DNA from: Chloroflexota bacterium
GTDB taxonomy: Bacteria; Chloroflexota; Anaerolineae; Ardenticatenales; Ardenticatenaceae
Direction: 5' to 3'
Assembly (NCBI GenBank): GCA_003520455.1
Contig: DOUV01000642.1
Coordinates: 1-6,603 of the forward strand
Length of the DNA: 6,603 nt
Part shown: positions 505-6,562 of the stretch, piece after piece
Position numbering within the stretch: position 1 is the first letter of the stretch
How the letters are laid out: the number at the start of each line of letters is the position of its first letter
Translations under genes and position numbers: made by a program
Notes under the pieces: generated by a model
What the model was told of the DNA's origin: nothing
The model's input: the letters and a program-made list of their open reading frames with translations, nothing else
The model's database searches: none

Positions 505-696
505 CTTTTTGCTCGCTAACCATCCTTTCCGGGACGGCGCCACCCACACCCCCTTTGGCTGCGCTCCACTTCCTCGAGAATCGCGGCCCCCGAAGTTGCC
601 CAGGCCGGCGCACCGGGCGGCTCGTCCACCGACCTCGACAATGAGGGCTTCAGGCCGAAGGATAGACTCGATACTCTTGAAAAGGTGGCGGAGGGC
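505..696. other. Non-coding stretch with no supported gene
   Basis: Frames are open here on both strands, as is usual in GC-rich DNA, but none has a start with a ribosome binding site or a recognisable family. One forward frame (about 600-745) reads rather like protein, with a run such as DRLDTLEKVAEGLSQSTR, and could be a relic. Because the promoter-like elements and RNA hairpins described below overlap its 3' part, I treat the stretch as intergenic. Confidence 0.45.
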
Positions 697-725
697 TTGT
701 CGCAGAGCACTCGCTCTGTTAGAAT
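697..725 (+). promoter_or_regulatory. Sigma70-like promoter with an inverted repeat in its spacer
   Basis: The -35 candidate TTGTCG (697-702) matches TTGACA at 4 of 6 positions. The -10 candidate TAGAAT (720-725) matches TATAAT at 5 of 6, and the spacing is the ideal 17 bp. The spacer contains CAGAGC-ACTC-GCTCTG (703-718), a perfect 6-bp inverted repeat that fills nearly the whole gap, where a bound repressor would block RNA polymerase. Transcription would begin near 731-733. This would be the promoter of the structured RNA and, by read-through, of brxA-brxB-brxC. Confidence 0.5.
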
Positions 726-731
726 TGGCGA

Positions 732-858
732 ACAACTGAAAGACAACCCCGGCGGTGAGATACACCGTCGACACGAAGGTCCAGGATCGGGCAGGCACCG
801 TGGTTTGTGTCTGCCGCGGACGACAAAGCTCGCCTGCATTCGACTGGGCGGGCTTTTT
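732..858 (+). ncRNA. Candidate structured small RNA or attenuated leader upstream of brxA
   Basis: The stretch between a promoter-like site and an intrinsic terminator folds into consecutive hairpins. Hairpin 1 is 750-757 with 763-770 (CGGCGGTG / CACCGTCG, 8 pairs including one G-U, 5-nt loop). Hairpin 2 is 790-798 with 807-815 (GGCAGGCAC / GTGTCTGCC, 9 pairs including one G-U, 8-nt loop), possibly closed by an outer GTCC/GGAC stem (779-782 with 818-821). Hairpin 3 is the terminator at 825-858. A G-U wobble in each stem pairs in RNA but not in DNA, which hints at folding of this strand. The RNA would be about 127 nt. It matches no riboswitch or sRNA class that I recognise. It may be an independent sRNA, or a leader that controls read-through into the BREX genes. 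The start site and expression are inferred. Confidence 0.5.
825..858 (+). terminator. Rho-independent terminator ahead of brxA
   Basis: AAAGCTCGCC (825-834) pairs with GGCGGGCTTT (847-856) across a 12-nt loop, giving 10 pairs with one G-U. The T-run is 854-858. This is the best intrinsic terminator in the window. It lies 124 bp before the brxA start, so it ends the putative small RNA or acts as an attenuator for the BREX operon. If it is constitutive, brxA needs another promoter between 859 and 982, where I see no clear one. Confidence 0.7.
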
Positions 859-862
859 GCTT

Positions 863-883
863 GCGCTCTTATTGGAAGAGTGC
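863..883 (+). promoter_or_regulatory. Hairpin in the brxA leader
   Basis: GCGCTCTT (863-870) pairs with AAGAGTGC (876-883) over a 5-nt ATTGG loop: 8 pairs, one of them G-U. It begins 4 nt after the terminator T-run. Together with the palindrome at 894-914 it continues the series of hairpins through the brxA leader. No T-run follows, so it is not a second terminator. Its function is unknown. Confidence 0.45.
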
Positions 884-893
884 CCATCGGGGA

Positions 894-914
894 GGCGAGG
901 GCAATGCCCTCGCC
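894..914. promoter_or_regulatory. Perfect 21-bp palindrome upstream of brxA, candidate operator
   Basis: GGCGAGGGCA and TGCCCTCGCC are perfect 10-bp inverted arms around a single A. In RNA this is a 9-bp stem with an AAT loop. It lies 68 bp before the GTG start of brxA. Some BREX loci are controlled by BrxR, a WYL-domain dimer that binds inverted repeats upstream of the operon; this site would suit such a dimer, but no regulator gene is in the window, so the link is inference. No promoter hexamers are obvious around it. Confidence 0.5.
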
Positions 915-982
915 GACCCTCCCACCTGATTCCACCTGGCATGTTTGCTCGAGAGACACGATGGAATCCAGGAGACTTTCGG

Positions 983-2590: not shown

Positions 2591-5500
2591 ATGCGGATCC
2601 GTGATATCTTTGCCACCACCATCCAGGAACGGATTGAACCGGTCGTGAAGGTCGCCGACCGGCGGCCCGCGATCATGCTGAACGAGCTGGAGAACCTGGT
2701 GGTGACTCCGCAATGGGAGCGATACCTCCACCGCATCCTCGACGCCTACACCGACGCTGCAGATCGGGTCGATGAGCAGGGCATCGGCATTTGGATCAGC
2801 GGCTTCTTTGGCTCCGGGAAATCGCTGCTCATGAAGGTCCTCGGGATGCTGCTGGAGGGCAAGGATCTGGCGGGACAAGACGTCCATAAAGTCTTTCTGA
2901 ACCGGCTCCCGGCCGGCAGTCCTGATCGTGCCGACATCCAGCGTTTCCTCAGAATCTGCGAGCGCAAGATCAGCACCACGGCGGTGGGCGGCAACCTCCA
3001 CGCGATGTTGACCAGCCAGGAGGACCCGCTCGCCCTGATTGCCTTCAAGCTCTTCGCCCACCGGCGCGGCTACACCCACCACTGGCCCCTGGCCTGGGCG
3101 GTGGAGTACCAGATCGACGCTCGTGGGCTGAGTGAGGATTTCCGGCACCGAGCCGGTGAGATCACCGGTGTGGAGTGGGAAGAGTTGGCCGTCGATCCCG
3201 AGTTCTACCTGGACCGGCTCTACGAGGCCGCCGCCGATGTGCTGCCGGATCACTTCAGCGGTGGCGTCGCCGCCGTCGGCCGGGCGGTGGATGCGGTGGC
3301 TCGCGGCGGCATCGATGCGACCAGGCTCGTCGACCGGCTCCGGCGCTGGTGCGCGGCTCAAGACGGTGATGGCCGGCGCCACAAGCTTTTGCTGCAGCTT
3401 GACGAGTTGGGCCAGTGGATTGCCAGCGGCAACCCCAACGACCGCATCATGAACGTCGCGGCCCTGGCCGAGCGAGCGGCGGAAGCTGGTGAAGGACGTA
3501 TCTGGATCTCCGTGACCGCGCACGGGGATGTCCAGGCCCTCCGCCAGAACGTGCAGCAGGAGCAGTACGCCAAGATCATCCAGCGCTTCGCCATCCAGTG
3601 CAAGCTGAGCAACGATGACATCAGCCAGGTGGTGGAGGAGCGGCTGCTGCGCAAGACGCAGGAGGCTCGCATCGCGTTGGAGCAGCGCTTCGAGGAGCGC
3701 AGTGGCGACCTGGCCGATCTGGGGACGGTGCAGGGCGCCCAGCGCGTCTATCCCGTACCGAATCGTGAGAGCTTTGCCCTGTTCTACCCCTACGTGCCCT
3801 GGACCGTGGCCGTGATTCCCGACGTCGTCAAGGGCATCGCCCAGGCGGCGGGGCGCGACGAGGCGCTGACGGGCTCGAACCGCACGATGATCGGCGTGGT
3901 GCAGGGGGCCATCATCGAGACGCCGGGCTTCCTGGAGAGCCGCGTGGGGCGCCTGCTGGCGCTGGCCGATCTCTATGACCAGCTCGCCTCGGACGTGCCG
4001 ATCGAGACCAAGACCGATCTCAACCGTGTGGCCGACACCGTGCCCGGCGCCACGGCCTTCACGGCGCGCGTGGCACGGGCGCTCTTTCTCTTGGGCCAGG
4101 CGAAGTACATTCCCACGACACTCGACAACGTGACCCGCGCACTCGTGGATGGGCTCGACATCAATCTCAGCTCGCTTGGGAAACGGGTCAGGCTGGAGCT
4201 GGAGCGGTTGGTGGCAGCCGGCTACGCCAAGCAGGTGGGTGAACAGTTCGTCTTCCTCACCACCCAGCAGCGCGGCTTCCAGGACAAGGTCCGGGCGCGG
4301 CAAGAGGAGTTGCTGAGCCAGAGCTATGAGTTGAGCCAGGCACTCAAAGCGTACGACAGCGAGGAGGCGCTGCGCTTCGATCGCGTGCCACTGCAGGACT
4401 GGGAGCTCCCGCTCAAGCTGGAGATCGACGGGCGCGCGGTGCGCAACCCGGCGGCGCACGTGACGCTGCGGGTCCTCAGCCCGATCCAGCGCGCCCTCGA
4501 TCCCCAGATTGGGGACGACACCGCGTTGAGACAGCGCTCGCAGCAGGCCCCCGATACAATCTTCCTCCGGCTGGCGGAGGTTCCCGGATTTCGAAAGGCA
4601 CTCGCGTTGGCGGTGGCCACCGAGGAGGTCTCCAACAACGTCATCAACTCGCCGCGGGCCGAGCAGGGCGAGGAGGATGTCGCCCGGCAGGCCCGGCAGG
4701 TGGACCTGCCCGCCCATCGCGATCAGGTGCGGCGCCTGCTGGGGCAGTCAGTCCGCAACGCGACCATCTTCTTCCGCGGCGTTGCCTACGACCTGGCCCC
4801 CGGCGAGAGCGCCAGCGCCGCCATGCGGGCCACCTTGAGCCAGATTCTACCGAACGTTTACCCGCGCTTCTCCGAGGTCCCCTACCGGATCGCCAACGAG
4901 AACACGGCGGTCAAGGCCGCGTTGCGCGGCAACGCCACCAACGCCGAACTGAAAGCACTGGGAGTCTACAAAGCGGACGGCACACTCAACGAGAGCCACC
5001 CGCTGCTGAGCGCCCTGCGGGGCCGGCTTCCGTTGGCCGATCAGGACCAGCCGCCCATCAATGCCGGCGACCTGCGCGATGAGTTCGAGCGCCCACCGTT
5101 CGGCTGGGACGGGAACTGCGTCAAGGTCGGGCTGGCGCTCCTCCTGCGCGCCTCCGCCTGTCGGCTGATCGAGAACGGCCTGGTAATGACCGACCCCAGC
5201 AATCCCGAGGTGGAGCAGCTCCTGACGAAGGAGCAACGCTTCAAGAGCGTCCGCGTCCAGGGCGTGCGCGCCGAGATCGGCGTGAAGACCCTGCTGCAGA
5301 TTCGCGGCTACGTCGAGGCGCTGTACGGTGTGAAGCCACCGCTCGTCGCCGCGACCTTCAACAATGTGCTCGGCGAGAAGCTGGCCGAGACCGCCGCCCA
5401 TGCCGCAGAGCTACACGAGTGGGCGGCCGCCGCTCAATGCCCGCTGCCCCTCGAGTTCGAGGCCGGCACCAACCTGGTGAGCGAACTGCGGAGCATGGCC

Positions 5501-6205
5501 GCCCCCCAACTCCGGCTGCCCACCTTCCTGGAACAGGCCGATCGCTTACTCCACTACCATGAGACCCTGCGCGAGTTCACGGCGTTCAAGAACGAGCACG
5601 GCGCGACCTACTCGAAGGTGCGCGACTTCTACAACAAGATGATCTACGCCAGCGTGGACCTCCCGGAGGTGCGCCAGTTTGTCAACGATTTCCGCGTGGT
5701 GAGCAACGAGCGCAGCGTGACGACCGCGACCCGCTGGAACGAGATCGTCCAATCCTACCACGCCGCCCAACAGGCCATCGACCGGCAGGTGGCGCGCTGG
5801 CGGCAGGAGGCGGAAGACCAGTTGGGCCGACTCGACGCCGACCTGGAAGCCCGCGTGCGCGCCGCCGGGGTGCCGGAAGAAGCGATCCCCGACGTGATGG
5901 CGGAGCTGCTGGCCCGGTACGAGGATGTTCGCGAGCAACTGCGCCGCTCCACCCTCAACCTGCACGAGGCGAGCAAGTTGCTCGCGGCCCTGACAGGCGC
6001 CGGGCTCGACGTGCAGCGGCGCCTGCGGGAGCTCCAGGAGCAATTCCGAACCCGCGGCGAATCGAGTGAGACTGTTCTGAGCTGGCAGAATCTCGTGAGG
6101 CCGGCGCGGGCCGCATCGGCGGCTGAGCTGGACCAGGTTCTCGCCGCCGTCAGAGCGCGCATCCTGGAGGTGTGGGATCAGCAGGGCCCTCTGGTGCTGG
6201 AGTAG
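2591..6205 (+). CDS. brxC: BREX ATPase BrxC
   Basis: BrxC is the large cytoplasmic P-loop ATPase of BREX, essential for phage exclusion in studied type 1 systems. The product has 1204 residues, the usual family length of about 1200. Near the N-terminus is Walker A GFFGSGKS (71-78, K77). Walker B is LLLQLDEL with D271 and E272. A sensor-like strand WISVTAHGD (305-313) and an R-F pair at 332-333 follow in the usual order for a AAA-type ATPase. The segment ALTGSNRTMIG in the middle also resembles the family. From about 1050 to 1150 the chain is rich in Glu, Arg, Gln and Leu with heptad-like spacing, suggesting a coiled coil. ATG 2591 has AGGAGGT just upstream. The gene is intact, with all ATPase motifs present. 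PglY of other BREX types is a related ATPase, but the brxA-brxB context favours BrxC. Confidence 0.93.
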   Translation: MRIRDIFATTIQERIEPVVKVADRRPAIMLNELENLVVTPQWERYLHRILDAYTDAADRVDEQGIGIWISGFFGSGKSLLMKVLGMLLEGKDLAGQDVHKVFLNRLPAGSPDRADIQRFLRICERKISTTAVGGNLHAMLTSQEDPLALIAFKLFAHRRGYTHHWPLAWAVEYQIDARGLSEDFRHRAGEITGVEWEELAVDPEFYLDRLYEAAADVLPDHFSGGVAAVGRAVDAVARGGIDATRLVDRLRRWCAAQDGDGRRHKLLLQLDELGQWIASGNPNDRIMNVAALAERAAEAGEGRIWISVTAHGDVQALRQNVQQEQYAKIIQRFAIQCKLSNDDISQVVEERLLRKTQEARIALEQRFEERSGDLADLGTVQGAQRVYPVPNRESFALFYPYVPWTVAVIPDVVKGIAQAAGRDEALTGSNRTMIGVVQGAIIETPGFLESRVGRLLALADLYDQLASDVPIETKTDLNRVADTVPGATAFTARVARALFLLGQAKYIPTTLDNVTRALVDGLDINLSSLGKRVRLELERLVAAGYAKQVGEQFVFLTTQQRGFQDKVRARQEELLSQSYELSQALKAYDSEEALRFDRVPLQDWELPLKLEIDGRAVRNPAAHVTLRVLSPIQRALDPQIGDDTALRQRSQQAPDTIFLRLAEVPGFRKALALAVATEEVSNNVINSPRAEQGEEDVARQARQVDLPAHRDQVRRLLGQSVRNATIFFRGVAYDLAPGESASAAMRATLSQILPNVYPRFSEVPYRIANENTAVKAALRGNATNAELKALGVYKADGTLNESHPLLSALRGRLPLADQDQPPINAGDLRDEFERPPFGWDGNCVKVGLALLLRASACRLIENGLVMTDPSNPEVEQLLTKEQRFKSVRVQGVRAEIGVKTLLQIRGYVEALYGVKPPLVAATFNNVLGEKLAETAAHAAELHEWAAAAQCPLPLEFEAGTNLVSELRSMAAPQLRLPTFLEQADRLLHYHETLREFTAFKNEHGATYSKVRDFYNKMIYASVDLPEVRQFVNDFRVVSNERSVTTATRWNEIVQSYHAAQQAIDRQVARWRQEAEDQLGRLDADLEARVRAAGVPEEAIPDVMAELLARYEDVREQLRRSTLNLHEASKLLAALTGAGLDVQRRLRELQEQFRTRGESSETVLSWQNLVRPARAASAAELDQVLAAVRARILEVWDQQGPLVLE

Positions 6206-6309: not shown

Positions 6310-6562
6310 CGGCGCCCGAGCCACGAGTTTCACAACGACCCCGTTGGCTCGCGCCGCGCAGTGCGACGACGAGATGCTGCGCGTCTTTTTGGTGGATGGG
6401 CGGGAGATTGCCGCACCGCTGGCCTGGTTCCCGCGCCTCTTCCAGGCCACTCCCCACCAGCGCGCCGGGTGGCAGTTGATCGGCAACGGCGAGGGACTGC
6501 ACTGGGAAGCCTTGGACGAGGACATTTCGGTTGCCAGCCTGCTCGGCCTGCCGGGCGACTGA
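6290..6562 (+). CDS. DUF2442 domain-containing protein
   Basis: This 90-residue cytoplasmic protein has the DUF2442 pattern: LVDGREIAAPLAWFPRL (34-50), then WQLIGNGEGLHWEALDED (61-78) and ISVASLL (79-85). The aromatic-Pro-Arg-Leu and H-W-x-x-L-D-E-D blocks are diagnostic. The family is small, has no proven enzymatic activity and is often found beside DUF4160 genes in putative toxin-antitoxin-like pairs; no DUF4160 partner is visible here. ATG 6290 is preceded by GGAGG (6279-6283) at 6 nt spacing, which supports the start. The first 25 residues, rich in Thr and Ala, precede the domain. It lies 84 bp after brxC on the same strand, where pglX would be expected in a canonical type 1 locus, so it may be an accessory gene of the island or an insertion. 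A BREX role is unproven. Confidence 0.82.
   Translation: MTTSVPNGARATSFTTTPLARAAQCDDEMLRVFLVDGREIAAPLAWFPRLFQATPHQRAGWQLIGNGEGLHWEALDEDISVASLLGLPGD

Follow-up and report, generated by a model that had tools for sequence, protein, structure and literature searches.

The DNA that precedes the brxA gene of a BREX operon in a Chloroflexota bacterium can be read as a short structured leader unit that ends in an intrinsic terminator, with brxA reached by read-through. We give this reading a probability of about 0.38, and it is drawn from a window of 6,603 nucleotides, the whole stretch of DNA that was analysed and to which all positions refer. According to this model, an RNA would start near position 732 from a promoter at 697-725, which is possibly controlled through a dyad in its spacer; the RNA would fold into two hairpins, H1 and H2; most polymerases would halt at about 858, releasing an RNA of about 127 nt; and the fraction that reads through would transcribe brxA. 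We infer transcription, termination, read-through and any regulation from signals in the DNA; the stretch may yield either a short RNA or a leader that limits transcription, and any control of the defence genes is hypothetical. If premature termination does limit BREX, it would permit the fast release of a costly defence on infection. The regulation of BREX that we have met in print is that by the DNA-binding protein BrxR, in the available text of PMC9122589, and among the literature matches listed for BREX, many of which are not about BREX, no title deals with RNA elements of BREX operons.

The BREX Genes and the Gap Upstream of brxA

Protein matches identify brxA (983-1711) and brxC (2591-6205), both on the plus strand, and brxB lies between them on the same strand at 1708-2283, with no match in Pfam or NCBIfam. 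A DUF2442 gene is also recognised in the window, and no regulator gene is recognised there, brxR included. By eye, about 2-109 of the window resembles the tail of a histidine kinase gene, after which about 870 nt lacking any recognised gene lead up to brxA. The start of brxA is most likely the GTG at 983, because the database copy of the protein (P0001) begins there and seven other homologues begin at about the same place; a Shine-Dalgarno-like AGGAG is seen by eye at 969-973 on the plus strand. This start had been overlooked in an earlier reading of the window, made from the letters alone and referred to here as the sequence-only reading. The brxA frame stays open upstream to 740 (740-1711), so automatic gene calling may stretch BrxA into the leader. 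The cluster to which P0001 belongs has three members, spread over three contigs, and the genome collection holds four BrxC loci, all in Chloroflexota MAGs.

Neither a coding nor a tRNA identity was found for the gap. Ten of its 16 stop-to-stop frames (one of them in part) were compared with Pfam and gave no match below E 0.2, four of those frames and the one taken in part had no match in NCBIfam, and a 192-aa frame at 520-1095 had no homologue at E 10. No tRNA or tmRNA was found, and the T-arm motif is absent from 1-1000.

A Promoter Candidate, Hairpins and a Terminator

The promoter candidate is a consensus match (9/12) on the plus strand at 697-725, comprising a -35 element TTGTCG (697-702), a 17-bp spacer and an extended -10 element TAGAAT (720-725) that is preceded by TG. 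It is the sole candidate under the first rule applied to both strands of 1-2500, where shuffles lead one to expect 0.2, and the claim of a well-spaced promoter made in the sequence-only reading is thereby upheld; a looser rule adds a weaker match at 635-663 (8/12) and a shifted reading of 697-725 itself. The spacer contains an operator-like dyad that had escaped attention, CAGAGC-ACTC-GCTCTG at 703-718, which has 6 bp and no strand; a dyad of this kind arises in 32 of 5000 shuffles, yet also in 103 of the window's own 6584 19-mers.

The positions of the promoter candidate and of the terminator predict a plus-strand transcript of 127 nt, 732-858. The two stems claimed for it, with one G-U pair each, were recovered by a hairpin scan as H1 (750-770, 8 bp) and H2 (790-815, 9 bp), both on the plus strand, and so was the terminator stem with its T-run, now measured as a predicted plus-strand intrinsic terminator at 825-858 whose 12-bp stem (825-856) includes three G-U pairs and is followed by the T-run. 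Two further hairpins lie 3' of the terminator and had not been noticed: H4 at 863-883 on the plus strand (8 bp, one G-U pair), and H5, which has no strand and extends over 887-920 with a perfect 9-bp core at 894-914. With H4 and H5 the series comes to five hairpins, whose starts are 31-40 nt apart from 750 onward; an additional plus-strand stem at 845-863 (8 bp, six G-U pairs) overlaps the terminator and is left out of the count. Upstream, the plus strand of 110-690 contains no hairpin of at least 7 bp with a loop of 3-9, and the palindrome GACTTCSGAAGTCT, which occurs there, forms just 6 bp under that rule.

How Far the Signals Exceed Chance

By thresholds that were fixed only after the stems had been seen (at least 8 bp, at most one G-U pair), 690-985 holds four hairpins against a shuffle mean of 0.12, with none of 1000 shuffles reaching four, and 732-858 holds two against a mean of 0.05, with one shuffle in 1000 having as many. 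The cluster of clean stems at 690-985 exceeds chance. The folding energy of 732-858 is unremarkable: its z is -2.14, with 6 of 200 shuffles equally good, and when 200 stretches of 130 nt from both strands of the window were scored, each against 40 shuffles, 12 folded at least as low, of which seven are coding and two are 846-975, once per strand, containing H4 and H5. The stretch 716-845 reaches a z of only -0.71. A loose terminator scan finds 2 sites where 2.1 are expected; under a strict rule, 13 of 500 shuffles of 100-985 contain at least one match, and two matches also lie inside genes of the window, at 6355-6383 on the plus strand and at 4901-4923 on the minus strand.

With G-U pairing permitted, the stems of at least 8 bp in 690-985 that belong to H1, H2, the terminator and H4 arise on the plus strand alone, and the symmetric H5 is the only such stem on the minus strand. 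In palindromes maintained at the DNA level, pairs would be lost to G-U and to A-C equally often as read on the plus strand, the latter being the G-U stems of the minus strand, so stems confined to the plus strand argue for RNA over DNA-level palindromes, modestly, since there are four of them.

A short terminated plus-strand RNA is the natural reading of a promoter, strand-specific hairpins and a terminator placed in this order, and to that extent the layout of a small RNA or attenuation leader, as first proposed for this stretch, is partly supported. The leader reading is favoured by the scarcity in shuffles of the promoter candidate, the hairpin cluster and the strict terminator, by stems that form on the plus strand only, by the hairpin-free 110-690, by the lack of a consensus promoter in 860-985 and by the lack of a convincing protein match in the region.

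Proposed Termination and Read-Through, and the Question of an Alternative Fold

Between the terminator and brxA, in 860-985, there is no consensus promoter, so brxA would be read through the terminator if 697-725 is real and is the sole promoter; a brxA promoter of a kind missed by the consensus could exist. Many attenuators work by a change to an alternative fold. In the window, sequence signals do place a terminator between a promoter (697-725) and a gene (terminator 825-858, brxA from 983). When the terminator pairs are forbidden, both arms are left unpaired, and the duplexes that the arms could form with upstream or downstream sequence are equalled in 50, 26, 44 and 153 of 200 shuffles; neither folding nor duplex comparison thus yields an alternative antiterminator structure, and this part of the proposed attenuation layout does no better than chance. 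Antitermination could instead depend on a factor. In a growing-transcript calculation, H2 and the terminator stand at 0.52 and 0.34 when the transcript reaches 854, at 0.07 and 1.00 at 878, and both above 0.9 at 914, which suggests a weak competition between H2 and the terminator arm.

Leaders that act by premature termination, with an intrinsic terminator between promoter and coding sequence, are described in the available text of PMC2965389. The window likewise has a terminator on the same strand between promoter candidate and brxA; in contrast to such leaders as they appear in that text, no mutually exclusive antiterminator was found, nor do the relatives show synteny with brxA. Neither "defense" nor "chloroflexi" occurs as a word in the main text of that article as available. 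A more far-reaching version, in which the sole promoter feeds the terminator-ended leader, factor-dependent read-through activates the defence genes, and the 127-nt RNA is a by-product or a regulator, would mean that the BREX operon is gated at the RNA level; taken whole, it is quite improbable.

Homologues and Related brxA Loci

The leader DNA was compared with four genomes that carry a BrxC locus, with 158 genomes of the class of genome G001 and 396 of the class of genome G002, and also with five genomes of a family and, brxA included, with 201 of an order; the comparisons with 158, 396 and 201 genomes scored two to four candidates per genome, so that weak homologues could escape them. A DNA homologue of 725-860 was found neither in the Chloroflexota genomes searched nor in plasmids or phages, and the aligned pieces within 725-860 reach at most about 55 bases. 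The homologue search by which the sequence-only reading had hoped to reveal covariation thus came back empty, and because it did, the stems have no covariation support.

BrxA itself has matches at E < 1e-10 in 9 of 158 genomes (11 places) and at E < 1e-40 in 6 of 400, and none in viral contigs. The regions upstream of nine related brxA genes (L019-L023, L028 and L030-L032, with L019 and L028 in one genome) were examined, the more distant loci L024-L027 and L029 being left out. Over the 758-900 nt scanned in each, the sole terminator-like site on the plus strand lies in L023, 813-837 nt from brxA, so none of the nine has a plus-strand terminator within 750 nt of the gene, and the synteny expected of an attenuator is not seen in any of them. 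At E 1, blastn finds no similarity between any of them and window positions 601-982. Within 300 nt upstream of brxA, two of the nine (L020 and L021) have one hairpin each, against five in the window by the same rule. Promoter candidates occur upstream of brxA in seven of the nine, less than 100 nt away in three, and no 8-bp hairpin stands between promoter and gene in those three.

Since no terminator lies near brxA in these nine loci, the element is no constant companion of BREX there, and the idea of a conserved RNA, or of an sRNA travelling with the defence island, finds no support in either the homologue search or the related loci. As it stands, the hairpin and terminator element is a candidate from a single genome. 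The leader reading is weakened by the missing homologue, by the nine relatives without a matching upstream element, by the failure of any antiterminator to beat shuffles, and by the unremarkable folding energy together with the repeat nature of H5.

H5 and the Possibility of Inert Intergenic DNA

Many of the leader-DNA matches in the 158-, 396- and 201-genome comparisons fall on H5 and its flanks. Forty H5-like places (L103-L142) were fetched, chosen by likeness to the window copy with relatedness uncontrolled, and the 40 include two (L124 and L128) that the script had centred on another palindrome. At least 12 Watson-Crick pairs are present in 28 of the 40, and the common form is a dispersed 14-bp hairpin, GGGTAGGCGAGGGC-AWT-GCCCTCGCCTACCC. 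At pair 10 (n = 40), A-T occurs 21 times, G-C eight, C-G four and T-A two, with five copies lacking a Watson-Crick pair, so that both sides have changed; the window copy, a degenerate one, has mismatches at pairs 10 and 11. From its many copies and its paired stem, H5 is a REP-like dispersed palindrome, and its being repeat DNA cautions against taking the whole cluster for one RNA. REP elements tagged with GTAG are reported from Chloroflexi in the available text of PMC3733652, and the H5 family is likewise a dispersed short palindrome. The GTAG described there is an end tag, whereas no end tag was met in the H5 family: GTAG is present in the 5' arm of 17 of the 40 copies, inside the stem, and is absent from the window copy.

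It is quite possible, if on balance doubtful, that the whole region is inert intergenic DNA in which an insulating terminator or a relic is accompanied by dispersed palindromes, with BREX shielded from upstream transcription and an unseen brxA promoter after 860. H5 is such a palindrome, the window carries seven copies of GACTTCSGAAGTCT, the remainder of the region is not conserved, and 814-863 is 80% like the terminator of a tRNA-Lys gene elsewhere, though near chance. Nevertheless, the searches made did not show H1, H2, the terminator or H4 as dispersed repeats; all four fold on one strand only, and the proposed promoter after the terminator has no consensus match. We place the leader reading just ahead of inert DNA because brxA, if 697-725 is a real promoter and its only one, would need read-through.

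The likeness to a tRNA terminator concerns one Chloroflexota genome (L082), in which 1393-2031 comprises a tRNA-Lys(CTT) gene, the terminator behind it, and next a gene that carries two HTH_17 stretches and is also AbiEi-like; this could be an integration site. The match may be due to chance, since its E is 6e-4 per genome, 396 genomes were searched, and pattern searches yielded no further copy. A conserved tRNA-terminator module was rejected: searches of 2 and of 186 genomes each found the pattern in a single genome, the source genome (G564) both times, and viral contigs had none. If the likeness is real, the window terminator could be what is left of an insertion site; terminators of IS elements and prophages exapted as "mobile attenuators" are described in the available text of PMC2965389.

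A Separate Small RNA or Sites for a Regulator

An independent, trans-acting sRNA to which BREX is merely a neighbour would suit a promoter, stable hairpins and a terminator combined as sequence signals in one 127-nt unit, and we regard it as rather unlikely. Rfam has no match in the region (up to E 5 the window gives a single match, to mir-57 at 1799-1861, with E 3.4 and a score below the gathering score), and related genomes offer no homologue and hence neither conserved sequence nor covarying structure. The single-stranded parts are not significantly antisense to the four gene-start regions, of brxA, brxB, brxC and the DUF2442 gene: the best of 16 comparisons is equalled in 7 of 100 shuffles.

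Least likely of all is that the palindromes are DNA binding sites of a BREX regulator, by analogy with Acinetobacter, where BrxR, a WYL protein, binds a site at the BREX promoter, a pseudo-palindrome at the tip of a predicted promoter stem-loop in the available text of PMC9122589, for although a palindromic structure at the promoter is shared and a dyad sits in the promoter spacer, the hairpins and terminator lie 3' of the promoter, the stems are unlike one another and, with their G-U pairs, make imperfect DNA palindromes, none of the nine relatives has the dyad motif within 600 nt upstream of brxA, and no brxR or other regulator gene is recognised in the window. In three of the nine relatives (L019, L023 and L028) a small HTH_17/MerR-type gene stands directly 5' of brxA, which favours regulator sites and is possibly a regulator other than BrxR.

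A Second Palindrome Within the Operon

The seven copies of GACTTCSGAAGTCT lie at 153-166, 237-250, 309-322, 2305-2318, 2388-2401, 2450-2463 and 2533-2546. The last four belong to a pair of tandem 145-bp units (87% alike) in the gap from brxB to brxC. A search for AGACTTCSGAAGTCT found it in none of the 158 genomes of G001's class and in 19 of 331 Chloroflexota genomes, with 49 sites in one of them and 0 for the reversed control. It also occurs in 37 viral-contig stretches, in some as pairs spaced by 18 or about 85 nt, and the palindrome is possibly a mobile palindromic element inside the BREX operon.
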